From positions 1 through 47,423 of IMG/VR virus record IMGVR_UViG_3300045131_001230: DNA of 47,423 bases, one strand, 5' to 3'. Position numbers and translations under genes: made by a program. Below are positions 3,508 through 47,423 of the stretch, piece by piece. The stretch is from a virus. Under the pieces are notes generated by a model that saw only the letters and a list, made by a program, of their open reading frames with translations, had not been told where the DNA came from and did no database searches. Within the stretch, counting starts at the first letter, position 1. Every line of letters starts with the position of its first letter.

Positions 3508-3509
3508 TA

Positions 3510-32415: not shown

Positions 32416-34103
32416 TTCGCTGGGCCTCTCGTAGTTTTGCCAGCATTTTGAACTTTGTTCTGGCTCATTGTCTTTTCATCTTTGGCATTACCGTCCATCA
32501 TCTTTCCCATGCCTCTTGCCTCGCCATTCTCTGCCACTCCACCTTTATTCTGATACTGGCTGATACGCGCAAGTTTGTCAGCATGGTCCTTCTTCGCTGC
32601 TTCAACCTGTCCTTTAGGATATCCACGAACCATTGAGGCAAATTCTATTCCTACCAAGCCATTTTCGGCATCTTTAGCAAGGACTTCAGGTTGAACAATC
32701 GCTACTGGAGATTCCTCAATCTCTTTCTCAATCATTGCCATTGTATCTGGACTAATTTTGTATCCAATAGTTGTCTGAGCGATATCTTTTACCATTTCTT
32801 TCTGGAAAGTAATAGAAGGAATGGCTATCATAACCTTCTCTTTGCGTTCTGCCTCATCAAGGATTTGGGAATCACTCTTGATTGTGTATTTTCTAGGATA
32901 TGTTATCTGATAGTCGGCTTTGTCATTTTCATAAGCTGACCATATCTTGCAGATTTCTCTCTCAGCTGTCTCTAAAACGAAACCGATAGATGAGAGTCCT
33001 GCCTCAAGACCTTCACTATCCATGCCTTTCGACTCTGCTGATTGAACTTTCGGACGTATCGAAGATAGAGAAAGAGCCGTCAGTTGTCTGATATCTTCCT
33101 TCATTCTCTCTTGTTTATCCATGGAGGCCCGTAGTGGCTCAGGAGAAGGATGGATGTAACCAGGTCTTTCGGCTCCGATAGGGTATGTTCTACCTTTTAT
33201 AGTGCCTGTTTCGATAACTTGCTCACCAGCGACAGCTTTTTCACCATCTTCTGATTTCTTCATCTTATTTTGAACAACTGTACGACCATCAATTTGCTCA
33301 GTATACGTGGGAAAATTGCTCTTATAAGCATAAAACATATCGGAAGAAGCTAGATTTAACATCGCAATTTGATAAGAAGCCGTGTCAGAGAGGAGAGAAT
33401 CATTTAGCTCTAATATGGTGAAGGGAATCATCGGGAGATTAAGATGAACAGACTTGATAAGTGTGTTATCAAAGTTATAGATTTTCAAATCTACGCCATT
33501 ATTTCGCAAATTTAACAGCCAATATTGCTTTTCATTGGTAAGTGGAAGACCGGTTTCATCATCTGCATCGTAATTGTTCGTTTCAAGGAGAACGCTCGTA
33601 AGAGTTGTGCCTTTATATGACCAATTAAGAATATCCTCTGCATGATAAGTATAGAGATAAGGGTGATTTATGCCTTTATCTGCAAGAGTTGGGCCAATTT
33701 CTCCAGCATTATCGACAAATACACCCACTTTACCTAAAGCAAGAAGCTCACCTAGTACATTCTGTGATATGAATGAGTTCATTGTCGACCCTCTCAGGTC
33801 AACACCATCATTTTTGCCAAATATAGCATCTGAATATGACGGACTTCCACCTTTTCTAATGATATCGCTTGCCCGTTGGAACACACTATTCATTACTTCT
33901 TTAACTGCTGCTTTAGCAAAAGCAGGAATTGGAGAAATCTTCTTACGCATTGCAAAGGTTTCTGCTGTTTCTTGCTGGCTAAACTGTAAGAGGTATTGAT
34001 CTCTGAAGATATCGCCACCATTATAGCAAAGACGATATGTTTCCCACTTCTGCCAATCATATAAATATGTTGGATGGCGAGTGTTTAGAATGTCGATTGT
34101 CAT
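32412..34103 (-). CDS. portal protein
   Basis: The 563-residue protein directly follows the large terminase (TAATG overlap). Its start, RHPTYLYDWQKWETYRLCYNG, and the RDQYLLQFSQQET segment fit DUF4055-type portals. A long helical C-terminal part with SMVRGYPKGQVEAAKK and a low-complexity tail follows. It forms the dodecameric ring through which DNA is packed. Confidence 0.85.
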   Translation of the reverse strand: MTIDILNTRHPTYLYDWQKWETYRLCYNGGDIFRDQYLLQFSQQETAETFAMRKKISPIPAFAKAAVKEVMNSVFQRASDIIRKGGSPSYSDAIFGKNDGVDLRGSTMNSFISQNVLGELLALGKVGVFVDNAGEIGPTLADKGINHPYLYTYHAEDILNWSYKGTTLTSVLLETNNYDADDETGLPLTNEKQYWLLNLRNNGVDLKIYNFDNTLIKSVHLNLPMIPFTILELNDSLLSDTASYQIAMLNLASSDMFYAYKSNFPTYTEQIDGRTVVQNKMKKSEDGEKAVAGEQVIETGTIKGRTYPIGAERPGYIHPSPEPLRASMDKQERMKEDIRQLTALSLSSIRPKVQSAESKGMDSEGLEAGLSSIGFVLETAEREICKIWSAYENDKADYQITYPRKYTIKSDSQILDEAERKEKVMIAIPSITFQKEMVKDIAQTTIGYKISPDTMAMIEKEIEESPVAIVQPEVLAKDAENGLVGIEFASMVRGYPKGQVEAAKKDHADKLARISQYQNKGGVAENGEARGMGKMMDGNAKDEKTMSQNKVQNAGKTTRGPAK

Positions 34104-35734
34104 TAGATTGTTATATCCTTGTTGACGTTGGTTGTTACAAGAGCTAAAGCGATTTCACTATAGTTTCTACTATGTGCAAAATGGTCGTCGCCTGTGTTAA
34201 TGTAACGACCCGTCGGATTACCATCTGTGTCCATCTCATACTTTTTAACAATGTTCTGAAGATGATTTTTGTATTCTAATGATGTATTAACTGGTATCGA
34301 TATTGCTCTATTTTTGAATCTACCAAGTGATAAATCGAGCCAGCTTGTACGATCTACCGTAACGAAGACGTCATTAAATGATATATTGCGGGTCTTTGAA
34401 CCATCTGAATAAAAACAGCAATTGACCAACCCTGGAAAACGATTAGCGAACTCGAAGGACTTACGTCTTTCTGGGTTCGCATCTATCACACAATGGCTGA
34501 CACCGTACTTATACATTAAAGCATCGAGGTTTTCGAACTCTGGAACCTTACCTTCGTAGATAATCCTCGGACGAGAGGCATCATTTAAGTCTCCAACCGA
34601 GTCGGTTGAATACCAGTCGTCGATTTCGACGTGCAGCCACTTACCCACGTCTACTCCCATCGTAACGATTGGTGACTTGCTCTTGGTTTCGTTCTGGTAA
34701 TTCTTTATACAAGCCTCGATATCCTCTTGGTCAATACGGGCACCTTTGACGATATGTGGCAGTCCGAGCTTACTATTCCAAAACTCTTGCTCCGCTGCAG
34801 GATTCTTTAATCCCTTAAAATATGAGATGGCTATCTCCTTCGGTGAGATAGTCGGGCTGTAGAGTTGGTTTATATAAAATCCTCTGATGGAAGTATTGGA
34901 AGTCTCCGCCACCCATTGCCCCAAAGCCAAGAGGGAAGCTTTTTCGGTAGGTGAAGTGTTGCAATCGACAATGGGGGCGGAGCAAAGGTTACAGATGTAT
35001 CTTGACTTGGAGACGTTCGGGTCAGTCTCATGCTCGCCTTCGATGATGACGTTCTCTGGGTAGCGCAAGCATATTGACTTCCCACATTTCGGACATTTGA
35101 AGTAGAATTGTTCTTGTGTAGAGATTAAGAAATCGGCATTGATGCCATAGTTTTGGATCGTTGGCGTGCTTATCTGCCATGTCTGTTTCTCTATCTGGCC
35201 TGACTGACGCTCGAAGATAAGAGGAATGTTATTCTGAACCATCTCGTCTTTTTCATCAATGGCTACGCGTGATACTGGGATTGATTTCAGCTTACTCTTG
35301 GAGCGTGAGCCTCTTATGAAAAGATTGGCTCCACCGGCACGTTTGTGGCGTGTATTTTTGACGTCCGTGAATAGGGCGGCGAGATGTTTTGAAGTCTCGA
35401 TTGCAGGATCGAATCGTGAGGCTGCGAATATGCCTGCATCGTCGTCGCTCGGGAGGACATATAAGCAACTCTCCTGACTTATGTCAATGTGATAGAATAC
35501 CCAGTTCAGAAGCGTTTCTGTATAACCCATCTGGGCACTCTTCTGACCGATGTTCATATCGGCCTTAGAATCATGCATGGCTTTGAGCCAAGGATGGTGA
35601 CCGAAGGAGAACGGGCCAGGAAACGGCTGACCCATAACGCGATATCTCTCTGCCCACTTTGAACATGAAGCGACAGCTGCCCTGCTAAGGCCAGCTGCCA
35701 TTCGTTGTACAAAGACTGAGGAGAGGTTGACCAT
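34103..35734 (-). CDS. terminase large subunit, lambda GpA type
   Basis: The 543-residue packaging motor has a Walker A variant at about 61-73 (GQKSAQMGYTE, with K65), Walker B RVAIDEKDEM (D160, E161), a CPKC zinc knuckle near 214 with partner cysteines YICNLC, and the nuclease start MGVDVG. This order is typical of GpA (pfam05876). It cuts concatemers and drives DNA into the prohead. Confidence 0.93.
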   Translation of the reverse strand: MVNLSSVFVQRMAAGLSRAAVASCSKWAERYRVMGQPFPGPFSFGHHPWLKAMHDSKADMNIGQKSAQMGYTETLLNWVFYHIDISQESCLYVLPSDDDAGIFAASRFDPAIETSKHLAALFTDVKNTRHKRAGGANLFIRGSRSKSKLKSIPVSRVAIDEKDEMVQNNIPLIFERQSGQIEKQTWQISTPTIQNYGINADFLISTQEQFYFKCPKCGKSICLRYPENVIIEGEHETDPNVSKSRYICNLCSAPIVDCNTSPTEKASLLALGQWVAETSNTSIRGFYINQLYSPTISPKEIAISYFKGLKNPAAEQEFWNSKLGLPHIVKGARIDQEDIEACIKNYQNETKSKSPIVTMGVDVGKWLHVEIDDWYSTDSVGDLNDASRPRIIYEGKVPEFENLDALMYKYGVSHCVIDANPERRKSFEFANRFPGLVNCCFYSDGSKTRNISFNDVFVTVDRTSWLDLSLGRFKNRAISIPVNTSLEYKNHLQNIVKKYEMDTDGNPTGRYINTGDDHFAHSRNYSEIALALVTTNVNKDITI

Positions 35735-36309
35735 CAGGAGGGCTTATCTACCGGCTTGAGATTTGTTGCATTGATTTCTGTCTGCTCCATCACTGTGAGG
35801 AGTTGGACGGCGATTTTGTCCACTAACTCTGGGTCTTCGATTTCCTTGCCGATGATGGCGACCATTTGGTCAACGAGGCTTAGGAGGGTAGATTTGTCAA
35901 TCATCACTCCGAGCTTGGACTCTAGGCCGTGGCAGGAGTTGACGAGCTTGTCAATCTTGACTACTAAGTCGCTTAGGTCACCACTGTTGAGCAGTAGTTC
36001 TGCATCGTTCTGGCAAGCATTCAGCTTTTCTTCCAGTATCATCCTCAGAACGCCGATTTCTTCCCTGAGGCACTTGATGTTTGAAGATTTCGCAATCTCT
36101 CCCACCCTTTGCTGGTACTTCTGAACACGAAAACGATAGATACTCTCACGCTCTTGTTTTTTGACTGTCGAGTAGCCACCGTGAGCGTAGCAATTTTTAC
36201 CGCCTTCTACAGCGACGTTATCGCACTGGCCTGACGGGACGACTGCTTGACACCGTCTCGGGTCATCCGGTCGGGTTATTTTCTCGACGACTTTGTGATC
36301 TAATGCCAT
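35734..36309 (-). CDS. probable terminase small subunit with zinc motif
   Basis: This is the first gene of the late operon, overlapping the large terminase by one base. Residues 18-43 form a Cys/His motif (RCQAVVPSGQCDN, then NCYAHGG). The rest is helical, with a C-terminal coiled coil suited to oligomers. DNA recognition at the packaging site is inferred from position. Confidence 0.75.
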   Translation of the reverse strand: MALDHKVVEKITRPDDPRRCQAVVPSGQCDNVAVEGGKNCYAHGGYSTVKKQERESIYRFRVQKYQQRVGEIAKSSNIKCLREEIGVLRMILEEKLNACQNDAELLLNSGDLSDLVVKIDKLVNSCHGLESKLGVMIDKSTLLSLVDQMVAIIGKEIEDPELVDKIAVQLLTVMEQTEINATNLKPVDKPS

Positions 36310-36362
36310 TTTGTTATGTCCAGTTTGTTGGGCCTTTTTAACACTTCAATTTTTTCTGGAGC

Positions 36363-36384
36363 AGATTTTCTGATCAGCAAATCT
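36363..36384. promoter_or_regulatory. compound dyad operator, downstream of the late promoter
   Basis: Three half-sites overlap in one 22-bp block: AGATT, TGATCA and AATCT. They form two copies of the genome-wide dyad, each with one mismatch (36363-36376 and 36371-36384), sharing the central half-site. The block lies about 20 bases downstream of the proposed late start point. Confidence 0.7.
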
Positions 36385-36408
36385 GTCCAGCGAACTACCC
36401 TTCCCGTC

Positions 36409-36437
36409 ATAATACAGTACTCCGTTTTTTCTGCCAT
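36409..36437 (-). promoter_or_regulatory. candidate late-operon promoter
   Basis: On the minus strand, ATGGCA (36437-36432) and TATTAT (36414-36409) are 17 bases apart, with 4/6 and 5/6 matches to sigma-70 consensus. Transcription would run into the small terminase gene at 36309. Dyad operators lie on both sides. A phage sigma-like protein could alternatively read a different box here. Confidence 0.5.
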
Positions 36438-36448
36438 TCTAAAGGGAC

Positions 36449-36475
36449 AGATCACGTGATCAGATTTTGTGATCC
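36449..36475. promoter_or_regulatory. tandem dyad operator, upstream of the late promoter
   Basis: Two dyads are fused with a 13-bp period and share one base: AGATC-ACGT-GATCA and AGATT-TTGT-GATCC (the second a full match). The same sequence recurs inverted at 38555-38583 with 27 of 29 bases identical. It ends about 12 bases upstream of the -35 box. Confidence 0.75.
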
Positions 36476-36586
36476 GAGTGATGACCTCGGACTTTTTTGG
36501 GTCGATTTTTAGTGCTTATTTGATGTTTGTTACAAATGAGCTTGCGTTTTGGCCGATTGTGCAATTTATTGAAGGACTATTTGCTG

Positions 36587-36673
36587 TTGAAAAAATCCGA
36601 AAAATGTAACTGTCACAAAAGTACTTACGGTCATAAATGTCTTTTGAAAAAATCCGAAAAATGTAACTGTCAC
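36587..36673. repeat. two exact 30-bp direct repeats
   Basis: Positions 36587-36616 and 36644-36673 are identical 30-mers (beginning TTGAAAAAATCCG, ending TGTAACTGTCAC), 57 bases apart. They lie in the non-coding region between the ParB-like gene and the late operon. They could be operators or iterons; no promoter is evident inside them. Confidence 0.75.
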
Positions 36674-36689
36674 CTGCACCTCGGACAGG

Positions 36690-36720
36690 GCAAAATTACG
36701 TAAGTAGGATTACGTAATCT
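36690..36720. repeat. 31-bp TACGTA element, copy A
   Basis: This segment has two TACGTA cores 12 bases apart and matches 45388-45418 at 26 of 31 positions. Both copies stand in non-coding control regions. Confidence 0.6.
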
Positions 36721-36734
36721 AACCCATGGGGCTA

Positions 36735-36797
36735 CTACCTATAAACGAAAATCATGAAGTATGCCAAAGCAATGGGAAGAAGGATAATAATTTCCAT
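36735..36797 (-). CDS. possible 20-residue membrane peptide
   Basis: A short frame reads MEIIILLPIALAYFMIFVYR, a single hydrophobic helix ending in a basic residue, with GAGGT about 9 bases upstream. It is too short to judge by coding statistics. It follows the ParB-like gene in the same direction, behind a hairpin. Confidence 0.4.
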   Translation of the reverse strand: MEIIILLPIALAYFMIFVYR

Positions 36798-36897
36798 TTT
36801 ATTTTACCTCACTGAATAGTAATTTAATAGCATTATCAACCGCATTTCCGTGCCGTAGTTTGAACGTTTGCTCGTCAATATCTCGCTCGTTAGTTGA

Positions 36898-36928
36898 CAA
36901 GCGGCAAGGCTTCAAGCCTTGCCGCTTG
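36898..36928. terminator. perfect 15-bp hairpin after the ParB-like gene
   Basis: The arms 36898-36912 and 36914-36928 are exact complements around a single base (stem of about 13 bp in practice). It begins 14 bases beyond the ParB-like stop. There is no T run, as with the hairpins after the coat and tail tube genes. Confidence 0.75.
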
Positions 36929-36941
36929 CCATGGTTGCTAC

Positions 36942-37805
36942 TTACCCTAACACTTCCTTCATGAAGGCTTCAACGTCATTTGCGACGATAGCAGAGAGAA
37001 GAATACCATAGTGCGTCTTCATTTCCTCACTCGCATCAGACTCTTTGACGCTGACCATGAAGGTACTGATGTAGTTGCCAATACCGTCCACTGATGCGGC
37101 CTCTTGCGCTTTCTTCTCTTGCGCCTTCTCCAGACTGGCATTGTAGACGGTCAAGGCTTCAAGCCTTGCATCTGACCAGCTAAGCCCCCGCATCTGCGCC
37201 TTACGTGCGGCGTCGAAGCCTTCACGCAGGGCAGTAGTGACGCCTTTAACCTTATTGGCATAGTCTTCAACGAATTGTCCGCCGAGCATACAAGCACGGT
37301 AGCAGGACTGGTTTAGTCCCTTATGGAAATTCTTCAGCGTCTTCTTGTTTTCTTTGTCCGTCATGTCGCCGTTTCCTACGGCGCATGGATGATAGTCTTC
37401 GTACACGTTCAACATGTCCTGTAAGAACAGAGTCTCGCCATCCTTGGCGAGATACCGCCCAATTCCGTACCGCACCTTGTCACAGCCGAATTTCAGCACT
37501 TCCACCAGCGACAAGGCGAGCGTATCGCCTTTGTACATCTCTATCGCCTTCTGAATGCTCTGCTCTGACGTAACGTCAGCATCGACGACGATACAGGGGA
37601 AGGTGTTACAGGCTGTGAGGTACGTGTACCTGCGGAAACCATCGAGTATGATGTACTTTCCGTCGAGGCAGAGGTCGGCCACGATAAGAGGCTTGAGGCC
37701 GTCGAGCCACTCAAGGCCAGTAATTTTCCTCGAACCTGCTTGCCTATGGTTGCAAGTTGCAATGACGAGGCTCTCTCTGTCGATAAACTGTATTGTATTT
37801 TCCAT
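36942..37805 (-). CDS. ParB-like (ParB/Srx fold) protein
   Basis: The 287-residue protein has the ParB N-terminal fold: KPLIVADLCLDGKYIILDGFRRYTYL, where LDGFRRY matches the usual IDGhRRy box of the CTP- or ATP-binding pocket. A helical C-terminus with a charged coiled segment (YNASLEKAQEKKAQEAASV) follows. No ParA lies nearby. It may bind DNA as a partition or regulatory protein, or act as a ParB-fold nuclease. It has its own perfect promoter and about 200 bases of leader. It is a candidate, but only a candidate, for the protein that binds the genome-wide dyad. Confidence 0.8.
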   Translation of the reverse strand: MENTIQFIDRESLVIATCNHRQAGSRKITGLEWLDGLKPLIVADLCLDGKYIILDGFRRYTYLTACNTFPCIVVDADVTSEQSIQKAIEMYKGDTLALSLVEVLKFGCDKVRYGIGRYLAKDGETLFLQDMLNVYEDYHPCAVGNGDMTDKENKKTLKNFHKGLNQSCYRACMLGGQFVEDYANKVKGVTTALREGFDAARKAQMRGLSWSDARLEALTVYNASLEKAQEKKAQEAASVDGIGNYISTFMVSVKESDASEEMKTHYGILLSAIVANDVEAFMKEVLG

Positions 37806-38010
37806 TGTCGTAATTCCTTAAAATTGCTTGTTTGTAAATTGCTTACTGCTTGCCGTACTGCGCCTTCACTGTGTAGTTGATGTACTCACAGTACGCAGAT
37901 ATTCAAATTTTCAATGAACACGTTCCGTTTTCTTTTGATAGCTCGTAACGTCAGCTATAGGGTTTTCTGTATCACCTCATGGTTTGTTGTGGGTACTGCG
38001 GCTTGGTGTT

Positions 38011-38039
38011 ATTATAGGATAAGTAGCTTCACTTGTCAA
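38011..38039 (-). promoter_or_regulatory. perfect sigma-70 promoter for the ParB-like gene
   Basis: On the minus strand, TTGACA (38039-38034) and TATAAT (38016-38011) are separated by exactly 17 bases, a full consensus match. The start point near 38004 leaves a leader of about 200 bases before the ParB-like ATG. Confidence 0.88.
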
Positions 38040-38554
38040 TAGTAGTAACTTTCGACATAGTGCGTTTTTACAGCGTAAGCTGTTGATATTCATAGAGATA
38101 AAATCTTTCAATTATTTTCGTATATTCGTTGACGAGTTGAAGAATTGCTCGTTTTCATGTCGTTATAAAATCTGCTTGTGAAATCTATCTTTCAATTTTC
38201 TTTTGCTTTTTGGCTATTGTGGCATGGTAGTTGCTAACAGCATGTACCATGCCAAAGTAGCCACGGGAAAATATTTTTCACTTTTTTCTTTTTCTACTCT
38301 TGACAAATTACGTTTGTTGTATTTATTCAATTTGTTAATTTTGGCAGATTGTAGAAATGGGATTTTGTAACCTGTATTTCTACGTTCCGCTTATGTAATC
38401 TGTTTTACATATATTGTATCTATTATTACTAAACCCGCGCCTACATGTTTGCACATATGCATTACGCGAATATCCGCTTTATATACCCCTAATTATCCGC
38501 CCATATGCCTAACTAAAAAATATGGGTCATTTTACAACTTGAAAAAAACTTGGG

Positions 38555-38583
38555 CCACGAAATCTGATCACGTGATCTGTCCC
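38555..38583. repeat. inverted copy of the late operator element
   Basis: Its reverse complement matches 36444-36472 at 27 of 29 bases and contains the dyad TGATC-ACGT-GATCT. The pair frames a 2.1-kb segment with the ParB-like gene. Confidence 0.75.
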
Positions 38584-38723
38584 ACGAAGTAGGGTTATTT
38601 TCCCTCCTGCCCTTTAGTGGAAAACTTCCATTATTACATAGTGGAAAACATCCATTTTGTAAACATTTCAGGCCGTTTGACGGCATATTACGCCACTCGT
38701 TATTTAAGTGTTAGTTTTCGTCA

Positions 38724-38858
38724 TTTTCGTCAATTTACCTGTTTTGTTCATTTTGTTCATTTTGTTCATTTTCGTCAATTTACCTGTTTTGTTCATTTTG
38801 TTCATTTTGTTCATTTTGTTCATTTTGTTCATTTTGTTCATTTTGTTCATTTTGTTCG
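38724..38858. repeat. iteron-like array, 15 units of 9 bp
   Basis: The array stays in a strict 9-bp phase: one 18-bp unit TTTTCGTCAATTTACCTG, three TTTTGTTCA, the 18-bp unit again, then seven TTTTGTTCA and one TTTTGTTCG. On the minus strand the unit reads TGAACAAAA. Short direct repeats in A+T-rich DNA are typical of replication origins and some partition sites. An open frame across it (Phe-Val-His repeats) is just a by-product of the period. Confidence 0.8.
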
Positions 38859-38908
38859 TTTTGTCAAGAGTGTTCCAAAATGTTACACTGTCTCATTAAT
38901 GATACACT

Positions 38909-38940
38909 TTCTCATTTTTGAGAATTCTCATTTTTGAGAA
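38909..38940. repeat. tandem pair of TTCTCA-TTTT-TGAGAA dyads
   Basis: Two identical 16-bp dyads lie back to back (38909-38924 and 38925-38940). A third copy is at 39303-39318. Each could form a 6-bp hairpin or be a protein site. Confidence 0.65.
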
Positions 38941-39126
38941 ACAACGCTATGGCCTTCTGACCGCTTACCCTAACGCTTACCCTACTCCTATTCTAAAGTG
39001 TCTTTAACAAGCCTCTGCTGACCAGTAAAGGCTATCCTAGAGCGTGAGCTGACCCTCTGACCCTCTGACATACCTATTACTTATCTCTTTTATTATTCTT
39101 CACTACGCTCCATATATAAATACATA

Positions 39127-39150
39127 TACTACTACTACTACTACTACTAC
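39127..39150. repeat. (TAC)8 microsatellite
   Basis: Eight perfect TAC triplets stand in non-coding A+T-rich DNA. Copy number may vary between isolates; no role can be inferred. Confidence 0.7.
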
Positions 39151-39282
39151 TAATATTTTAATAAATTAATAATATTGGTAAGTTGAGGCTAACTGTTTCT
39201 AGGCTCCCCTCTGTGACTCAATTATCCTTTATCGGTAAGCCCTACCCCTAAATGGGTAGGTAGTGACAAAATGTCCCAAAAT

Positions 39283-39318
39283 GTGTCGCTTTTTACGACA
39301 CTTTCTCATTTTTGAGAA
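39283..39318. terminator. double hairpin downstream of nothing coding
   Basis: GTGTCG (39283-39288) pairs with CGACAC (39296-39301), and a third TTCTCA-TTTT-TGAGAA dyad follows at 39303-39318. On the minus strand this lies about 140 bases beyond the ligase stop, so it may end the right-arm transcript. Confidence 0.45.
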
Positions 39319-39426
39319 AGAGATTTAACAAATCGATTTGATAAACAGATTTGACCAATCTACTAAAAGTCAAAACATAGGCTAAAAAGTAACTTTTCGC
39401 TAGGTTGAAAACCCGATCGTACAAAA

Positions 39427-39453
39427 GGATTGTACGATCGGATTGTACGATCT
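39427..39453. promoter_or_regulatory. tandem dyad operator next to the ligase stop
   Basis: Two dyads with GTAC centres are fused with a 13-bp period: GGATT-GTAC-GATCG and GGATT-GTAC-GATCT (the second a full match). A further half-site lies at 39414-39422. The 13-bp fusion matches that of the late operator. Confidence 0.75.
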
Positions 39454-40419
39454 TCAGTCAAGCAGACAGATAAATCTAGCTTCTTTCGGCCTGCCACTAT
39501 CAGTCTTTTCTCGATAACGATAGCGACACAAGTGACCTTCTAGCTTGGATGGTAAAATCTTCCGAAAGTCGTCGTCCATGCCGGTGCCGATATCGAACAA
39601 TAGTCCACTATCACAGTCTCTAACGGTGAGCGCTCCGATAAGCCCGTCGAGCCGCCCCTCACCAAGCGTAGTGTCGACGATCTTAGCCTCGCCGTCGAGC
39701 CAAGCCTTATACTTCAGAACGACCCCACAACGTCGTGGGAGCCAGATCAAGCGATCCGACCGTAGCATGACTCCTTCGCCTCGACGGTCGACAACGTCCC
39801 TATAAATCTCTAGCACGCTCTCAACGGAGAAGCACTTGGTCTGCTCGACCATACGTAAGTCGTCCCCGTTCTGACCGTTGTAAGATATGAACCAGTCGCC
39901 GAAAGAAGCGAACGACCCACCATCCCGTCCCTGCACTTCGTGAAGCCAACGGCATCGATCGTCAAATCCTATCGTACCTATCACTTTGTTACGTACCTTT
40001 ATCGACCGCATGAGCCAAAAGTTTTCCCAAAGTACAGGGCCAGTAGCGTAAAACCGTACTCCAAACGGTAGCGTAGGGCTAGGCCCCCAGTCACGGGCCG
40101 ACACCGTCGCTCTAACCACAGAGCTAACGCTCTGAAACGTACCACGACCGCCCCATAGTTCGCCCTCAGTAGGTCCAACCTTCGACGCGATCATGTGATC
40201 CGTCCACGTCGTCGGCACCCGTATTGGCTTCCCGCCGTTCGTCCACCAGCCTGTAGAGCGTCCTTTGTCCCACGGCATGACCTCACCAATAGTAGACCCG
40301 CCGTCCCAAAACGCTCGGTGACCGTCCATCTTCTCAGATACCCATACGCCACCACCCAGCGGTAACACGTGACCGTCCCACGTATCACTCTTCATTAAAA
40401 ATTCACTATTACTAGCCAT
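39454..40419 (-). CDS. ATP-dependent DNA ligase
   Basis: All nucleotidyltransferase motifs are visible: motif I SEKMDGHRAFWDG with the lysine at residue 30, motif III GELWGGRGTFQ, motif IV GEGVMLR and motif V VLKYKAW. A C-terminal OB-fold part ends in CRYRYREKTDSGRPKEARF. At 321 residues it is a minimal ligase without extra DNA-binding domain. It seals nicks using ATP. AAGGAGG lies 9 bases before the second ATG (40419), which is preferred over 40425. Confidence 0.92.
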   Translation of the reverse strand: MASNSEFLMKSDTWDGHVLPLGGGVWVSEKMDGHRAFWDGGSTIGEVMPWDKGRSTGWWTNGGKPIRVPTTWTDHMIASKVGPTEGELWGGRGTFQSVSSVVRATVSARDWGPSPTLPFGVRFYATGPVLWENFWLMRSIKVRNKVIGTIGFDDRCRWLHEVQGRDGGSFASFGDWFISYNGQNGDDLRMVEQTKCFSVESVLEIYRDVVDRRGEGVMLRSDRLIWLPRRCGVVLKYKAWLDGEAKIVDTTLGEGRLDGLIGALTVRDCDSGLLFDIGTGMDDDFRKILPSKLEGHLCRYRYREKTDSGRPKEARFICLLD

Positions 40420-40436
40420 GTTCATTTACCTCCTTG

Positions 40437-40553
40437 TTAGCGCATAGTACTACCTTTGTACAACCAAACGAAGAATACACCTATCATCACAACTAACCAA
40501 TACGGAGAAATGTTGAGGAGCCATATGCCGTTAGCGTCACTACTAACAGGCAT
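40437..40553 (-). CDS. small single-pass membrane protein
   Basis: A 38-codon frame has one strong membrane helix (YWLVVMIGVFFVWLYKG) and lies between the sigma-like gene and the ligase. An in-frame ATG at 40580 would extend it to 47 residues and overlap the upstream gene. The ribosome site is weak for either start. The function is unknown. Confidence 0.5.
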   Translation of the reverse strand: MPVSSDANGIWLLNISPYWLVVMIGVFFVWLYKGSTMR

Positions 40554-40566
40554 TAACAGTCCCACG

Positions 40567-41187
40567 CTATATATGAGCATACCTCACCCCGTCGGCCCGC
40601 TTGAGCTTCTTTTTCATAGCGTCAACACGGTTCCAAACGGTCATCTCCGTTACACAACCTAGCTGCTCCGATATCTCCCTATTGTTAAAACCTTCAGACT
40701 TCATACCTATAATTCGACTATCGAGAGGGTCAGTAACGACCCGCATCAAGTCCGACCAAACATCTTCAACACCCATGGCCTCCGTTACATGATCTACACC
40801 GCGATCAACTTCGTCCCACGATAGGTCAAGATCTAAGATTCTAAAATCTAGAGCAGGGTCGTACTCGGGATCGGACGGATCGTGCTCTTTGAGATTGTTA
40901 AATCTGCCTTTAGGCTTGTCGATACAAAGACGTAACCGCTTATGTTTGTGACGTACACCCCACATGCATTTCCATAAATACTTCTTTTGGCGGTCGACCG
41001 ACCATGTACTCTTCTTTGGGTCGCCGTTGACGATGTCGATCATTAGTTTGCCGCTCTCAACAACCAGCTCTGCAAGCATGTCGGCCTTAGCTTCGGGGTC
41101 AACTTTCTTGTACTTCTCGACCTTTAGCTCAGCGATAAGGTCAGATACTATAGTGTCCATCCACATAAGATCACCTAATCCTTTCAT
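40567..41187 (-). CDS. sigma-factor-like HTH protein
   Basis: The C-terminus reads DSRIIGMKSEGFNNREISEQ, then LGCVTEMTVWNRVDAMKKKL, a sigma region-4-like helix-turn-helix. The middle part with WKCMWGVRHKHKRLRL and an acidic stretch might correspond to a weak region 2. It may direct transcription of phage genes or act as a plain DNA-binding regulator. Several ATGs are possible at the start (41187, 41166, 41160). It is the best candidate in the window for a late activator. Confidence 0.65.
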   Translation of the reverse strand: MKGLGDLMWMDTIVSDLIAELKVEKYKKVDPEAKADMLAELVVESGKLMIDIVNGDPKKSTWSVDRQKKYLWKCMWGVRHKHKRLRLCIDKPKGRFNNLKEHDPSDPEYDPALDFRILDLDLSWDEVDRGVDHVTEAMGVEDVWSDLMRVVTDPLDSRIIGMKSEGFNNREISEQLGCVTEMTVWNRVDAMKKKLKRADGVRYAHI

Positions 41188-41205
41188 ATGTTACTATTAC
41201 TATTA

Positions 41206-41472
41206 CTAATCAATATAAGTCATCCAGTCTTTAGCCACTCTTACCCACATAATCGGATTGACGATAGCGTATTCGTTCTCTTTGATAATCGCTACCTCGT
41301 TATCGATTACGTAACGTGCGAGCATAGTCACGGCCTCGCATGTCTGAGTACATTCCGACCCATACCTCACGTTTGCCTCCGCTACAAACAAAGCATGAAT
41401 CGGCCCTTGAGTAGCAAAGTCGTGAGCAGTAACCAGCGGTACAGTAGCGTTACCTAATCTGTTCTTAGACAT
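41206..41472 (-). CDS. hypothetical protein
   Basis: This 88-residue protein contains VTAHDFATQGPIHALFVAE and a row of short strands and helices without a known motif. It belongs to the right-arm series of small genes, overlapping its neighbour by 8 bases. Confidence 0.6.
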   Translation of the reverse strand: MSKNRLGNATVPLVTAHDFATQGPIHALFVAEANVRYGSECTQTCEAVTMLARYVIDNEVAIIKENEYAIVNPIMWVRVAKDWMTYID

Positions 41473-41869
41473 TCTCCACCTCCCATATCCCTATCCACTT
41501 GTGATCAATCATATCCATTCTGATGTGATACATTCTACCATCAGCCTTGCGATGTACAAACCCGCAATAATGACCGTCGTCAAATAAGAGGTCGACCGCC
41601 TCATCAGATTCCACGATCTGATTCGTTAGCAACGTATCATCTTTTAACGCCATGAGTTCGTGATACTTCTCGACTACTCCCTTCCCTGTCCACATGGCGA
41701 GCGGAGCATCGACGTAATACACGTAAGTGTTAAAGTCAATAAGAAGAAAGAAAGGGTCAAGCCTAAGCGACGTCCATTGATAACCCTCTTCCTCGCTATT
41801 AACTTTGTACGACACGCTCTTCTTGTTAGCCAAACAGAAGAGCACCTGTTCAACAGTTATAAGCCTCAT
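41465..41869 (-). CDS. hypothetical protein
   Basis: ATG at 41869 (GGAGG upstream, ATGA overlap) gives 134 residues, replacing a longer frame that runs through the previous gene. It begins MRLITVEQVLFCLANKKSV, then aromatic strands (PFFLLIDFNTYVYYVD) and a C-terminal WIGIWEVENV. No family is recognised. Confidence 0.65.
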   Translation of the reverse strand: MRLITVEQVLFCLANKKSVSYKVNSEEEGYQWTSLRLDPFFLLIDFNTYVYYVDAPLAMWTGKGVVEKYHELMALKDDTLLTNQIVESDEAVDLLFDDGHYCGFVHRKADGRMYHIRMDMIDHKWIGIWEVENV

Positions 41870-42090
41870 ACGACCTCCGATATAACAACGCTGTGATTCG
41901 TTGCCCATTGCTGAATGGTCTTCATGTCCCACTCATTATCACTATACAGCTCGATGTTATCCTCGTCAGATTTCACGATCGTCGCCTCACCACACAAGAT
42001 GAAGAAGAAGATTATGAAATCCCGTCTTGTCTGCCTATCAGTCGTTTCCAGCGTCAGATAGTGCATATTCACTACAAGTCTGCCTATCAT
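41866..42090 (-). CDS. hypothetical small protein
   Basis: ATG at 42090 with GGAGG 5 bases upstream, one base after the preceding stop, gives 74 residues. It contains MIGRLVVNMHYLTLETTDRQ, then a hydrophobic FIIFFFILCG strand. The function is unknown. Confidence 0.6.
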   Translation of the reverse strand: MIGRLVVNMHYLTLETTDRQTRRDFIIFFFILCGEATIVKSDEDNIELYSDNEWDMKTIQQWATNHSVVISEVV

Positions 42091-42091
42091 A

Positions 42092-42247
42092 TTAGCCTCC
42101 GAGTTTTTCAACGAATAGGTTAAAGAGATCTTCGAGGTCGATCGCTAAATCGAACTCGCTCCTATCACACGAAACGATGAGTTGCGGTCTATCATGTACA
42201 GTTTTCACTGTATAGACCGCCTCATCAATAACTAAAGGTTTGTCCAT
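42092..42247 (-). CDS. hypothetical 51-residue protein
   Basis: The frame MDKPLVIDEAVYTVKTVHDR, then LIVSCDRSEFDLAIDLEDLF, fills the gap between neighbours exactly and has GGGAG 7 bases before the ATG. Its acidic, balanced composition supports a real protein. No function is known. Confidence 0.65.
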   Translation of the reverse strand: MDKPLVIDEAVYTVKTVHDRPQLIVSCDRSEFDLAIDLEDLFNLFVEKLGG

Positions 42248-42250
42248 AAG

Positions 42251-42475
42251 TTAGCTCCCTTTGTTCGAAGCGAGTAGTATGCCAGCGGCCCGATCACACG
42301 ATCCGACCAGCTCGATGTTAATGTTAGCAACGCTCGTCCATTGCTCGCACATGTACCCACCGAGTTCCTTCTCCGCAATGTCGAAGGCTTGTTCCTCAGT
42401 CCTGGCTACAACGATGCAAGCAATATAAGCATCCCAACCGATTCGATCCGTACGTGTCAGACGATAGATGTTCAT
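42251..42475 (-). CDS. small phage protein, paralog of its neighbour
   Basis: The 74-residue protein starts MNIYRLTRTDRIGWDAYIAC and continues IVVARTEEQAFDIA. It is similar to the next gene upstream (MNNIYRF, GYDVYDGAVVIAKNRAEAW). Such 'M.IYR....YD.Y..VVVA....A' proteins are frequent in phages, as far as I know without a function. GGAG precedes the ATG. Confidence 0.65.
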   Translation of the reverse strand: MNIYRLTRTDRIGWDAYIACIVVARTEEQAFDIAEKELGGYMCEQWTSVANINIELVGSCDRAAGILLASNKGS

Positions 42476-42483
42476 GGTACTCC

Positions 42484-42687
42484 TTAACCCGCATTAAAGG
42501 ACGTTAAGACGATGCATGGTTTCCGTTTAGATTTCCCGATCTGCTTGATATTAGGTGGATATGGGAAAGTAATATCAGCCTTTTCAAGCACACGCCATGC
42601 TTCGGCCCGATTCTTAGCAATGACGACGGCCCCATCATAGACGTCGTACCCACAAAACCCAGTCACAAAACGATAGATATTGTTCAT
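42484..42687 (-). CDS. small phage protein, paralog of its neighbour
   Basis: The 68-residue relative of the gene at 42251-42475 ends in KRKPCIVLTSFNAG, the usual end of this small phage family as I remember it. It overlaps the upstream gene by 4 bases. The function is unknown. Confidence 0.65.
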   Translation of the reverse strand: MNNIYRFVTGFCGYDVYDGAVVIAKNRAEAWRVLEKADITFPYPPNIKQIGKSKRKPCIVLTSFNAG

Positions 42688-43121
42688 ATGGCAACAGCCC
42701 CTTTCTTTAACCTTAACAGTCTCCTTTCGATTTCAATGCACGTCGAATGCTCGAAGATGGCGTACCCATCATTATCAAGCTCCCTCGCTATCTCTGCCTT
42801 ACGAGCAGAAGTAGCAGACGTCCACAACTTGAACACCCGACTGTCTTTCTCGAACGACTTGATAGTCATCTCATCTTCTATGATCTTGACGAGGTCGTTC
42901 TGATAAAGCAAGATCGTGAAATCTCCAACGACAACTTTATCGATAAAGACTAAGTCCTTCGTGTAGGTATCGACAAGTTCAATAATGTCGCCAACCTTTT
43001 CCTTCGGGATAGTTTCCCAAACGTGCAAGATGGCCTCGTTAGCCGTTGTGTGGCAGAACAAGACAGGGTCGTCAGTCAACAGCCCAAACATTTGGTCTTT
43101 ATAATAGATAGCAGATATCAT
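42684..43121 (-). CDS. hypothetical protein
   Basis: The 145-residue protein has a strand-rich first half (LVFIDKVVVGDFTILLYQND) and a helical, charged second half (SATSARKAEIARELDNDGY). No family is recognised. ATGA overlaps on both sides. Confidence 0.6.
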   Translation of the reverse strand: MISAIYYKDQMFGLLTDDPVLFCHTTANEAILHVWETIPKEKVGDIIELVDTYTKDLVFIDKVVVGDFTILLYQNDLVKIIEDEMTIKSFEKDSRVFKLWTSATSARKAEIARELDNDGYAIFEHSTCIEIERRLLRLKKGAVAI

Positions 43122-43354
43122 ATGTCAGCCTCCTTTGTATACGTTACGTCATTTTCATTGCACCATTCTTCGACTTTGAACCAGTCTGTCCACATCTCAG
43201 CTTTCTCTGCCCACCGCTTGAGATGTATGAAACTGTCAGAAGCATCAACGAGCTTGACGGGCTGAAAGATGTAGAACGTAAGGATAAACGATTGCTTGAT
43301 CTGCTCGTCATCACCGTACAGTAGCAGGTCAGTCTTTGTTTCGATGAGTGTCAT
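43118..43354 (-). CDS. hypothetical small protein
   Basis: ATG at 43354 in an ATGA overlap gives 78 residues: MTLIETKTDLLLYGDDEQIK, then FILTFYIFQPVKLVDAS and a Trp-rich end. The function is unknown. Confidence 0.6.
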   Translation of the reverse strand: MTLIETKTDLLLYGDDEQIKQSFILTFYIFQPVKLVDASDSFIHLKRWAEKAEMWTDWFKVEEWCNENDVTYTKEADI

Positions 43355-43557
43355 AGTATGTCCCACTGCACTTTAAAACTGTTTCTATCCCCGCAGCCCG
43401 ATATCATCGTGCCAGTCAGATCGTACAACCTGCAACGGAACATGTTCCTCACTTTCTTACGAAGATTCTCCTCATCGTAGAACAGTCCGACAAGATTCAT
43501 GATGACCTTATCACCATGCTTCGTGTAGGCGGTAAAACTAAAAACGTCCTTGTGCAT
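43351..43557 (-). CDS. hypothetical small protein
   Basis: The 68-residue frame with AAGGAG 5 bases upstream contains FSFTAYTKHGDKVIMNLVG and RKKVRNMFRCRLYDLTGTM. No family is recognised; it is a neighbour of several similar small genes. Confidence 0.6.
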   Translation of the reverse strand: MHKDVFSFTAYTKHGDKVIMNLVGLFYDEENLRKKVRNMFRCRLYDLTGTMISGCGDRNSFKVQWDIL

Positions 43558-43566
43558 AAGTCTCCT

Positions 43567-43812
43567 TTAGCGGTTAGCTAAACGACTCTTGAGTTCCAGC
43601 TTGACAGCCTTCGCCGTCTCGCCCCGCCAGGTGTTCGCGTTCGCCAAGAAGTAGGGAACTAAATCCCTCGCCGTCTCGACCCCGTACACGCTGTCCATCG
43701 ACTGGCAAGTGATGAGAGCGTCGATGTACGGGACAGCCCCGAAGTAGGGCTTCTTCCAGTCAGATTTCACGATCCGAAACAAAGCAGCGATAGAAAGTTT
43801 AGTGAGATCCAT
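43567..43812 (-). CDS. hypothetical helical protein
   Basis: The 81-residue helical protein has TKLSIAALFRIVKSDWKKPY, then APYID-like and MDSVYGVETARDLVPYFLAN segments. It reads like a small all-alpha phage protein; the function is unknown. AGGAG precedes the ATG. Confidence 0.65.
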   Translation of the reverse strand: MDLTKLSIAALFRIVKSDWKKPYFGAVPYIDALITCQSMDSVYGVETARDLVPYFLANANTWRGETAKAVKLELKSRLANR

Positions 43813-43842
43813 TGTATGTCTCCTTAGTTATTAGAGCAGTTA

Positions 43843-44082
43843 TTAGAGCATTTCCTCGATACGATAGTCAATAGTGACAGACTCGTCGTTAACATACACG
43901 CGGCTCTCGCCGACGACTTCATGATGGTCAGCCACGTTGGCTAGCAAAGCGTCAAGGTCGCACTCTTCAAGTTCCCGAAAGAGCCACATGATACCATCGA
44001 GGTCAGTAACGACAGCCATCGTGAACGGCTCGCGAGTACCATTATTATAATAACGAGAGAAGCGGATAGTATACATATTCAT
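43843..44082 (-). CDS. hypothetical small protein
   Basis: The 79-residue alpha/beta protein (MYTIRFSRYYNNGTREPFTM, then AVVTDLDGIMWLFRELEECD) starts in a TAATG overlap; ATG at 44076 is an alternative. No family is recognised. Confidence 0.65.
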   Translation of the reverse strand: MNMYTIRFSRYYNNGTREPFTMAVVTDLDGIMWLFRELEECDLDALLANVADHHEVVGESRVYVNDESVTIDYRIEEML

Positions 44083-44192
44083 TATTTGACCCTCACAGTG
44101 TAATTGTCGGATTTTCGAACGTAGTATTTGACTCCATCGAGAAGGATAAGTTTGCAGTCCTTACCGTCGAACAGGACAATTTCCTTACTCAT
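44082..44192 (-). CDS. hypothetical 36-residue peptide
   Basis: The frame MSKEIVLFDGKDCKLILLDG, then VKYYVRKSDNYTV, has GAGG 6 bases before the ATG and overlaps both neighbours slightly. Without it there would be the only gap in this stretch. It could be a tiny beta protein. Confidence 0.6.
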   Translation of the reverse strand: MSKEIVLFDGKDCKLILLDGVKYYVRKSDNYTVRVK

Positions 44193-44685
44193 GTGCCACC
44201 TCATAGGGGACGATCAGTTGCGGGTTAATTGAGAGTCCGTTTTCTTTAGCCAGCTCTTTAGCCTTCGTTATCGACAACTGAAACTCGATTACCAAATCTT
44301 GTCCTTCGGGAAGAGCCAGGCCATGCAGTGCCCCAGTCTCGACAGTGATAGCGAAAGGCCAGCAGTCGGAGATACCGATAACGCCTTCGCTCTCAATGAA
44401 AAGGATATCGCCATCGCAAGCGTCACCAGTTTGGCAAGCGTCATACGCCTGCTCGGTAGAGTCAAACCGAATAACCTTCGCCACCCTGTCCTTCATGTAG
44501 ACGTTGGTGAGGTCGATCTTCTCGACGTTCTCTTCTTGAATGATGTAGACTATCTCATCTTCGTAGTCCTTCAAGACCCACGAAATGTTCTCCTTGCGGA
44601 GCCTACCCGATACGAGCCTGTCAGTCGTATGCACACTCACGTACATACCCTCGACCAGTTCAAATTGTCTGCTTAACTCATTCAT
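44185..44685 (-). CDS. hypothetical protein
   Basis: ATG at 44685 (AAAGG upstream) gives 166 residues: QFELVEGMYVSVHTTDRLVS, a strand-rich domain, and a helical part with DSTEQAYDACQTGDACDGD. No family is recognised. Confidence 0.6.
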   Translation of the reverse strand: MNELSRQFELVEGMYVSVHTTDRLVSGRLRKENISWVLKDYEDEIVYIIQEENVEKIDLTNVYMKDRVAKVIRFDSTEQAYDACQTGDACDGDILFIESEGVIGISDCWPFAITVETGALHGLALPEGQDLVIEFQLSITKAKELAKENGLSINPQLIVPYEVAHE

Positions 44686-44736
44686 TTGTTTGTGCCTTTC
44701 ACTTGTGCACATGTTAGGTTACACGATCCGTTTTTA

Positions 44737-45108
44737 CTACTCACTCCTTTCTTTTTTATTTTCGATATAAAACCGGCATCCACCCGTGGCCGTGTTGACG
44801 AACTCACACGTACGGCCCATCTTCGCAAGCTCCTTGCTAAACTCGATCATATCGTCGTCGCTATAGTTGATCATCTTACCATACTCGACTGACCCTACGT
44901 CATACCTGCCACATACGAGTGAGCGGGCAAACGCCTGCACTGAGGTCATACCGTCACAAAACTGTGTCTGTGCTAAGATTGCACGATCTAAAAGGTAGTT
45001 CATCTCTTGCAGATCTTCCAGGGTAAGCTGAGCAGCACCCGTCATGTCCAACATGTGGTTCATGGTTCTACGCAGATCGTACAATCTGTCCAAAACTCGC
45101 TCCTTCAT
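44737..45108 (-). CDS. hypothetical protein, first gene behind the strong right-arm promoter
   Basis: The 123-residue helical protein has MKERVLDRLYDLRRTMNHML and TLEDLQEMNYLLDRAI at the start and a C-terminal CEFVNTATGGCRFYIE. GGAGG lies before the ATG. It would be the first gene made from the perfect promoter at 45246-45274, so it may act early. The function is unknown. Confidence 0.65.
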   Translation of the reverse strand: MKERVLDRLYDLRRTMNHMLDMTGAAQLTLEDLQEMNYLLDRAILAQTQFCDGMTSVQAFARSLVCGRYDVGSVEYGKMINYSDDDMIEFSKELAKMGRTCEFVNTATGGCRFYIENKKERSE

Positions 45109-45245
45109 ACTAACCTCCTAGATTATATAACGTATTCCTACAATCCCAAAATCTCTTAACGTCTTAACGTGTTAATCCGCTACTTTTTTCCTCTGTCGTT
45201 TTTCACAACACCTCGCATCATTTAGTATTATATTGTACTATTTAT

Positions 45246-45274
45246 ATTATACACTATAGACTACAGCTTGTCAA
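45246..45274 (-). promoter_or_regulatory. perfect sigma-70 promoter of the right-arm small-gene operon
   Basis: On the minus strand, TTGACA (45274-45269) and TATAAT (45251-45246) are exactly 17 bases apart. It points into the small-gene series starting at 45108. Together with 38011-38039 it is one of two full consensus promoters in the window. Confidence 0.9.
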
Positions 45275-45387
45275 TAGCGAAAAAATATATTTATTTTCGA
45301 TTTATTTTTCATAGATTTATTAAATCTACTATTTCTGGCACGATACTTGCTAAAGGTATTACTACCTACATACGTAAAAGCACTACG

Positions 45388-45418
45388 GCAAAACTACGTA
45401 AGTAATATTACGTAGTAT
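45388..45418. repeat. 31-bp TACGTA element, copy B
   Basis: It matches 36690-36720 at 26 of 31 bases, again with two TACGTA-type cores. It lies upstream of the right-arm promoter; further TACGTA/TACGAT repeats surround it. Confidence 0.6.
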
Positions 45419-45494
45419 TACGGTAGTGCTTTTACGATAGTAGAACTACGATAGTACTTTTACTTACGTAGATTAAGACGTTAAGGCGTTAAGG

Positions 45495-45941
45495 TTATAG
45501 GATGCAGATTTCCCAATCTTTAAGGACGATGGGAGATCTTGAAGGGTGGAGGCGGGAAGGGTCATAGGTTACATAATCGTGCCAGCAGACTGCATGGTGG
45601 TCATTTAAGAAAACCTTAGGCTTACCTAGATTAAAGTTTAAGATGCCTTCCCAATGATAAGGCGTCTTAACTTTCTGTATATCAACCTCGGTATGTCCGA
45701 CAATACTGTCCCTGTTAATCAACCGCATAGGTAGATCTAAAATAAGACTACACCACATGGCTTCGTCGATTGTGTGACCTCGAAAACAAAATGGTTCTGC
45801 TTGGTCTGGCCATATCTTTTCCGTACCATCATGGCCGACAATATCGAATAAGTTCTGTACATCAACCCCGAACATCATACCTAAAGATGTGAAGAAGCAA
45901 GATGCACGGTTGGGCTGCTGTTGGTGTCGCACGATAGTCAT
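45495..45941 (-). CDS. C39/papain-like cysteine peptidase-fold protein
   Basis: The 148-residue protein has QQQPNRASCFFTSLGMMFGV with Cys15 after a Gln, then GHDGTEKIWPDQ, and a C-terminal DHHAVCWHDYVTYDPSR that offers His and Asp. This order (Q..C...H..D) fits the C39/papain-like fold. Whether it cuts peptides or isopeptides is unknown. Confidence 0.55.
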   Translation of the reverse strand: MTIVRHQQQPNRASCFFTSLGMMFGVDVQNLFDIVGHDGTEKIWPDQAEPFCFRGHTIDEAMWCSLILDLPMRLINRDSIVGHTEVDIQKVKTPYHWEGILNFNLGKPKVFLNDHHAVCWHDYVTYDPSRLHPSRSPIVLKDWEICIL

Positions 45942-45944
45942 TAG

Positions 45945-46277
45945 CTAACGCCCTCCTAAGAGTTTTTTCATGTAGTACTGTCTCCAGTTTGCGGTTTGAA
46001 ATAGCTTAGAGTATTCCTGGTCGCTATCTCCGACCAGTATCCATATGCCTACACCAGCAGCCTCCATCTTCGGGAAAGTCTCTAACTGTGCAGGCGTGAA
46101 CGTACTCCGAGTTTCGTCTGGTTGTTTGCATTCTATCCATCTGATGCCATAGCGAATATGAGCAGCAAAGATATCAGGAAAACCAGACTGGTACAAATTA
46201 CCATGGGTAGACTTACAGAACCATTCAAGGTAGCGTAGCTTTCTTATGATGTTGTCTTGTATTATGCTTTCTTTCAT
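45945..46277 (-). CDS. VRR-NUC family nuclease
   Basis: The 110-residue protein has the VRR-NUC core: SIIQDNIIRKLRYL at the start, SGFPDIFAA with the catalytic Asp, RWIECKQ (E-x-K), and RSTFTPAQLETFPKMEAAGV. Relatives cut branched DNA such as Holliday junctions, useful before packaging. The start is an ATGA overlap with the gene before. Confidence 0.88.
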   Translation of the reverse strand: MKESIIQDNIIRKLRYLEWFCKSTHGNLYQSGFPDIFAAHIRYGIRWIECKQPDETRSTFTPAQLETFPKMEAAGVGIWILVGDSDQEYSKLFQTANWRQYYMKKLLGGR

Positions 46278-46444
46278 TCTTTTTCCTCTTTAGATTGCTC
46301 GATCTGATTTGCTGCACATTGCCCTCCACAACAAGTAGGTATAGTTATCAACATAAAGAGTTCATCGAGAGGCATCATAAGGTCAGTATAACCATCCTTA
46401 TGAGCCTTCTCGATCCGTTTAACGCTATCCTCATATGTTCTCAA
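46274..46444 (-). CDS. small Cys-containing protein with TTG start
   Basis: TTG at 46444 forms a TTGA overlap with the preceding stop and has GGAGG 10 bases upstream, which suits better than a start at 46543 deep inside the other gene. The product is 56 residues: RTYEDSVKRIEKAHKDGYTD, then TIPTCCGGQCAAN. The function is unknown. Confidence 0.6.
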   Translation of the reverse strand: MRTYEDSVKRIEKAHKDGYTDLMMPLDELFMLITIPTCCGGQCAANQIEQSKEEKE

Positions 46445-46740
46445 GGCTTTCTTTCCTCCAACCCAATCTTTTGGGATAACCCTACAGGCTTCTTCTTCGG
46501 ACGGTTGACCTTCTTTTTCTGTCCAGCTGCCTTGGTAACACATTTCCAGATTAACAAAACTTTGATAGCCTCATTAACCCGTGAGTCTATACCTAAATAT
46601 TGGGCCTCTCTAAGCAACTGGACAGCCCTATTCGTGTAGTATCCAGGGTTATCGACGTCCTGTAAGAGTTTATAAAGAATGTCCGTTTTGTAATCAAACT
46701 TGACTTCTTTAATTACCTCATTTAATATCCGCTGGTTCAT
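46441..46740 (-). CDS. hypothetical basic protein
   Basis: The 99-residue helical protein ends in a very basic tail (GQKKKVNRPKKKPVGLSQK), suggesting nucleic-acid binding. AAGGA lies 8 bases before the ATG. No family is recognised. Confidence 0.65.
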   Translation of the reverse strand: MNQRILNEVIKEVKFDYKTDILYKLLQDVDNPGYYTNRAVQLLREAQYLGIDSRVNEAIKVLLIWKCVTKAAGQKKKVNRPKKKPVGLSQKIGLEERKP

Positions 46741-46897
46741 ACTTTTGTTCCTTTTGTTCCTTAATCATCCGCTCCATCAGGATTTCACGATCTCTAAAAG
46801 ATAGTTTATCTACCCGTCGGATAGATCCGTTCTGATGTTTCACGTACTTCGGAAGGGAAGGCGTCTTGGATTTGTCGGACTGGCTCTCCTCGTTCAT
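46718..46897 (-). CDS. 59-residue protein overlapping two neighbours
   Basis: The frame MNEESQSDKSKTPSLPKYVK, then GSIRRVDKLSFRDREILMER, has AAGGAG 4-5 bases before its ATG. It overlaps the upstream zinc-protein gene by 92 bases in another frame and the next gene by 23. The sensible helix SFRDREILMERMIKEQKEQ favours a real protein. The function is unknown. Confidence 0.6.
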   Translation of the reverse strand: MNEESQSDKSKTPSLPKYVKHQNGSIRRVDKLSFRDREILMERMIKEQKEQKYEPADIK

Positions 46898-47102: not shown

Positions 47103-47104
47103 AG

Positions 47105-47410: not shown

Positions 47411-47423
47411 TTTCCATCCTCCC

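Follow-up and report, generated by a model that had tools for sequence, protein, structure and literature searches.

The stoperators of cluster A mycobacteriophages are copies of a lineage-specific repressor site, present 24 times in L5 and 34 times in Bxb1; they are 13-bp asymmetric sequences that lie mainly between genes, are oriented with transcription and serve lysogeny (PMC3029335). KorB, encoded by RK2, is a ParB-family CTP clamp that slides along DNA and regulates at a distance via palindromic OB operators (PMC11790492, PMC7022226). Noc is a ParB-family protein that works without ParA and is found at many dispersed palindromes (described in part in PMC7022226). Orphan ParB-family proteins are also common in phages, according to a survey (PMC12704722).

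We analyzed a 47,423-nt stretch of viral DNA (IMG/VR record IMGVR_UViG_3300045131_001230; hereafter, the window) and found that a 12-bp palindrome, GATY-N4-RATC, is dispersed over its whole length (1-47423). There are 91 exact copies (1.9 per kb, ~86-88% of them intragenic), whereas about 4.5-4.6 (+/- 2.2) are expected from a third-order Markov model; the form GATT-N4-AATC alone accounts for 51 copies vs 1.7 expected. Only a spacer of 4 is strongly enriched, and other spacer lengths give 0-13 copies. One-mismatch copies showed no excess (81 vs 77 +/- 12); the dyad is thus matched exactly, with no cloud of near-sites around it. Within-gene synonymous codon shuffling left 11.5 +/- 3.3 coding copies, as against the 76 observed. 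Because the excess survives this shuffling, selection acts on the DNA, and protein-coding constraint is ruled out as the cause of the dyads, as is base composition by the Markov controls. The dyads are indifferent to strand and frame, and the intragenic ones occur in all three frames. As a control, the same scan recovered the inverted repeats already described for phiC31, and it picked up no similar signal in T7 or in Gordonia phage Nyceirae.

This set resembles stoperators in that many copies of one site, 91 in this case, are spread across a phage genome (PMC3029335). Unlike stoperators, however, the dyads are palindromic, mostly intragenic and unoriented, and there are 2-4 times as many of them. 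The phages in question also differ in that neither a tyrosine integrase nor a CI-type repressor was recognised: across 25 records, this window among them, we found no match to the tyrosine integrase family (PF00589) and no HTH_3 match over the cut-off that would indicate a CI-type repressor. The phiC31 repressor repeats are similar in being exact, palindromic and multi-copy, and one scan detects both; they differ in their lower number (14 found, thinned) and longer site, and phiC31 is temperate and has an integrase.

Relatives were retrieved by their large terminase, yielding 28 and then 80 IMG/VR loci. Among named phages, none was close by large terminase and none was related at the DNA level. 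A de novo dyad scan showed that many of the uncultured relatives (terminase 41-57% identical) carry equally dense dyads of lineage-specific sequence and that a minority have none, with G028, G030, G031 and G033 among those lacking a clear dense dyad. The lineage dyads include GATT-N4-AATC, GATT-N5-AATC, GATG-N4-CATC, TGNTA-N4-TANCA (60 in G047), TCTA-N-TAGA (64 in G038), AGTT-N3-AACT (76 in G043) and GATA-N5-TATC (38 in G046). GATY-N5-RATC occurs 80 times in the 64.75 kb of G008 and 62 times in the 38.8 kb of G041, and the dyad of G019 is TTGTAA-N2-TTACAA. The motif state tracks phage phylogeny. In a 94.6-kb relative, G049 (L167-L171), AAGCTT occurs 167 times vs 58 expected, and this is perhaps the spacerless dyad of that lineage. 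A collinear relative lies at ~15-71 kb of a 444-kb Planctomycetota MAG contig, QQVP01000119 (L197-L200); it has two ParB genes without a dispersed dyad and is either a provirus or an assembly chimera. The only other genome match was a Pontiellaceae MAG contig (L051), and these two MAG contigs are the sole pointers to hosts.

We measured site retention between relatives; the window and its nearest relatives shared too little alignable DNA for this comparison. At ~70% DNA identity, 18/31 sites were retained vs 2.2 expected from the identity of the flanks; two further comparisons at ~70% gave 9/11 vs 0.9 and 4/7 vs 0.3, and one at 78% gave 5/8 vs 1.1. These alignments demonstrate that individual dyads are maintained by selection, site by site. 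The gaps between sites have a coefficient of variation of 0.61-0.83 in most genomes and are more even than random at P < 0.05 in 9/11 genomes, the exceptions being G039 and G019. Combined over nine genomes, even spacing reaches P ~2e-9, a simulated P of zero in one of them having been set to 0.0005.

The sites also form hot spots. For every conserved gene family we counted the sites in the stretch upstream of the gene, using for each genome its own motif. The sigma-70-like gene had 15 upstream sites vs 2.9 expected, in 8/8 genomes (P = 4e-7), the small-terminase gene 16 vs 6.0 in an automatic count from -400 to +30 (P = 5e-4), and ParB2 11 vs 3.7 (P = 1.6e-3). None of the remaining conserved families showed standout upstream enrichment (P > 0.03), and the densest multi-site clusters fall at these same three genes. 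Between -300 and +15 of the small-terminase start there are 23 sites vs 6.1 expected across 18 relatives, each scored with the motif of its lineage, and 19 vs 5.4 when this window is left out. The enrichment at gene starts is explained in part by a general intergenic preference, which is two- to seven-fold in some genomes. In the window, the dyad GATCACCTAATC (41169-41180) lies at the start of a minus-strand gene (40567-41187) for a 206-aa HTH protein, which by synteny is the positional counterpart of the sigma-70-like factor of the family. Just a region-4-like helix is recognisable in this protein (hhalign E = 4e-5, probability 70%), and a sequence search with it found no relatives. As far as sequence comparison goes, then, the dyads are demonstrably exact, individually selected, lineage-tracking, more evenly spaced than random and concentrated at three gene starts.

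Four exact copies of GATY-N4-RATC make up two clusters upstream of the small-terminase gene of the window. The original prediction had described them as three overlapping half-sites (36363-36384) downstream and a fused tandem (36449-36475) upstream of a promoter, and both clusters were borne out, with coordinates right to within a base. The downstream cluster, CAGATTTTCTGATCAGCAAATCTG, consists of two palindromes with a common GATC and thus has three half-sites: GATTTTCTGATC (36364-36375) matches GATY-N4-RATC exactly, and GATCAGCAAATC (36372-36383) overlaps it by the GATC. The upstream cluster, ACAGATCACGTGATCAGATTTTGTGATCC, is a tandem of two palindromes with a period of 13, GATCACGTGATC (36450-36461) forming its first half and GATTTTGTGATC (36463-36474) its second. 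The distances between the clusters, centre to centre, are 78, 86, 91 and 99 bp, or 7.4, 8.2, 8.7 and 9.4 helical turns, values that speak neither for looping nor against it. An extra dyad, GATTACGTAATC (36708-36719), also lies upstream of the small-terminase gene. A second copy of the fused-tandem element is found on the minus strand at 38548-38583 (89% identity over 36 bp), where the sole intact dyad is at 38566-38577, and two identical GGATTGTACGATC units stand in tandem at 39428-39452 with a period of 13, the geometry seen at 36450-36474. Given the density of the genome, four sites within these 111 bp have P = 7e-5, and an equally tight cluster anywhere in the genome has P = 0.09; the cluster at the small terminase is significant because its position is conserved in relatives. 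From these sequence patterns, we favour the view that binding sites are spread over the whole genome and lie most densely in these clusters, with a phage-encoded protein as the candidate binder.

Other repeats occur in the same region. A 33-bp direct repeat (36584-36616 and 36641-36673, 97% identical, spacing 57) lies just upstream of the clusters, and TTTTGTTCA units, in ~14 copies, form an array at 38714-38867 inside a 1.65-kb non-coding stretch. Short tandem repeats are also frequent in the corresponding regions of relatives, and most relatives have them upstream of the small terminase. Such arrays may possibly mark a packaging site or a repeat-driven contig break.

The small-terminase gene (35734-36309, minus strand), assigned by position and conservation, is the first of the late run; next to it is the gene for the large subunit (34103-35734, minus strand), which belongs to the gpA type. 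The minus-strand run of structural genes extends from 36309 to 4889, so the ~31-kb late operon that had been proposed fits the ORF map. At the end of this run is a gene for a patatin-like phospholipase (4889-5791, minus strand; PF01734, E = 2e-20). The proposed tie between the dispersed motif and late control also gains comparative support, since sites are enriched at the small terminase in relatives. It was further claimed that the two clusters bracket a late promoter, ATGGCA-N17-TATTAT, and act on it through looping. The clusters do sit around this match (36409-36437, minus strand), and their location at the late operon is conserved. However, the match itself is at chance level: it has 9/12 matching positions, and 2 sigma-70-type matches this good were observed vs 1.2 +/- 1.3 expected. 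In addition, a 45-codon open frame (36300-36437, minus strand) that overlaps the small-terminase start begins at its -35 box, and comparison of the upstream regions of relatives showed no promoter-like sequence in common. A search for relatives of the frame found none, and the frame therefore remains putative. The clusters themselves hold, the promoter that they were said to bracket lacks support, and we regard control by looping around it as highly improbable.

Sites with a GATC half are unevenly distributed, 24/30 sites having one in 36310-47423 (the control/early part) vs 16/61 in 1-36310 (P = 1.4e-6). Mixed sites lean one way on the plus strand (GATT-N4-GATC 23 vs GATC-N4-AATC 10). The window also encodes a D12 (Dam-class) methyltransferase (49-816), so methylation-sensitive sites are conceivable. 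Two adjacent, related plus-strand genes (3477-4268 and 4265-4852) show MptE-like similarity, weak for 3477-4268, and relatives of the pair occur in several dyad-bearing phages. As an account of the dyads, a restriction or methylation recognition site was set aside, as it would leave the enrichment, the even spacing and the promoter hot spots unexplained. An RNA hairpin was rejected: read as mRNA, 23/33 mixed sites would contain a C.A mismatch, and some lineages have spacers of 0-1.

Most relatives longer than 46 kb have two ParB-family genes, 4-11 kb apart and flanking a helicase gene. Both products, ParB1 and ParB2, align with Noc, Spo0J, ParB and KorB structures over the N-domain and HTH, and the ParB domain (NCBIfam) scores over the cut-off in proteins of the relatives. 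A third ParB-like family is present in five records, and the relatives of ParB1 and ParB2 in named phages are too distant to bear on the link between protein and dyad. Judged by how the genes are arranged in G008 and in the Planctomycetota contig, the window is a fragment without the ~14-kb DNA polymerase-ParB1-helicase-ParB2-primase segment. Since this segment lies outside the fragment, we infer this phage's own ParB1 and ParB2 from the gene order of its relatives. The sole ParB-like trace in the fragment is a 287-aa protein (36942-37805, minus strand) with a tentative, weak resemblance to the ParB N-domain (hhalign E = 6e-4, probability 28%); a sequence search with it found no relatives, and its single-sequence structure (mean pLDDT 38.5) was unusable. 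ParA (PF13614) had no match in 25 records including this window, so the system is unlike ParABS partition in having no ParA partner. ParB-family genes without a ParA match, together with dispersed palindromes, recall Noc, and the best alignment of ParB1 is also with Noc (E = 4e-32). However, Noc has a role in cell division and its sites are thinly scattered over a 4-Mb chromosome, whereas there are ~1-2 sites per kb here. The likeness to KorB lies in the structural alignments. RK2 has about a dozen KorB operators in 60 kb; the phages have far more sites per kb, and the context differs.

Based on these observations, we propose that the dyads are operators bound by a dimeric protein that the phage itself encodes. 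This binder, whose nature we infer, is most likely a member of the ParB family similar to KorB or Noc; we give this reading a probability of roughly 45%. A dimeric, sequence-specific phage protein would bind the dyads throughout the genome and act on transcription where the late operon, the sigma-like gene and ParB2 begin; the late operon and the late sigma factor would in this way be held or released together. The intragenic sites would spread the hold of the binder to the whole genome. The likeliest candidate would be one of the two ParB-family proteins, ParB2 (~340 aa) first. A ParB clamp would load at a palindrome, slide in a nucleotide-driven manner and silence or coat DNA over hundreds of bases, and with one site per 500-800 bp, the whole genome would be within reach of such clamps. 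By analogy, we favour a likeness to KorB and Noc in the candidate binder's mode of working and not in membership. Several findings count against a ParB binder. Dense dyads are missing from G028, G030, G031, G033 and the Planctomycetota copy, all of which have both ParB genes, G019 has dyads and no PF02195 match, and the presence of ParB genes does not strictly accompany that of dyads. The strongest upstream enrichment is at the sigma-like gene and not at ParB2. The spacer varies from 0 to 5 among lineages, which is unusual for one protein family. Neither covariation of the recognition helix with the motif class (P = 0.12 for ParB1, P = 0.36 for ParB2 and P = 0.24 for sigma) nor gene trees pick out one of the candidate binders.

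Some of this evidence would suit a different binder. Either the sigma-70-like protein or a small HTH repressor that escaped recognition might bind the dyads and regulate itself and the late operon, with the ParB proteins as bystanders. Sites lie upstream of the sigma-like gene in all eight genomes tested and in this window, the HTH of the sigma-like protein is highly variable between lineages, and G019, for all its missing PF02195 match, has dyads at its sigma gene. However, the sigma-like family can be aligned with standard sigma factors (SigF, FliA, RpoS), which bind asymmetric promoter elements, its recognition helices are completely different within the GATT-N5 class, and all HTH_3 matches that might reveal a small repressor were below the cut-off. 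We therefore consider such a binder unlikely, if worth serious attention. It is also rather unlikely that the sites serve mainly genome organization, in which a Noc/SlmA-like protein would condense, protect, segregate or membrane-tether the replicating DNA and the promoter hot spots would be secondary. The even spacing, the mainly intragenic location, the independence of strand and frame and the closeness of ParB1 to Noc are what would be expected of such a role, but the intergenic excess of two- to seven-fold in some genomes and the concentration at three genes are not. Finally, a host protein, either a global regulator or a nucleoid protein, could use the sites, and the motifs would then differ as the hosts differ; the tracking of phage lineage by the motif could mirror host range. 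This seems very unlikely in view of the very high density, the missing one-mismatch halo and the concentration of sites at phage-specific genes.

The dispersed palindromes point to a system, so far undescribed, that regulates or coats the phage genome along its whole length. We found no described case of such a system in the open-access literature searched, which proves no absence. In its fullest form, our proposal would be that an apparently lytic phage family uses near-regular, lineage-specific palindromes to load ParB clamps that coat or silence the genome and gate late transcription by way of the late sigma gene and the late operon, with site and binder co-evolving; we advance this version tentatively and consider the odds to be against it. 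The known dispersed operators of temperate phages silence the prophage, whereas the set described here is denser, palindromic, evenly spaced and intragenic, and it occurs in phages in which neither a tyrosine integrase nor a CI-type repressor was recognised. This introduces the question of why a lytic programme would need such marking of the genome. The many natural site classes, each with candidate proteins, make a direct comparison of binding possible. If the ParB-family reading is true, it would provide a first function for the orphan ParB-family proteins of phages.
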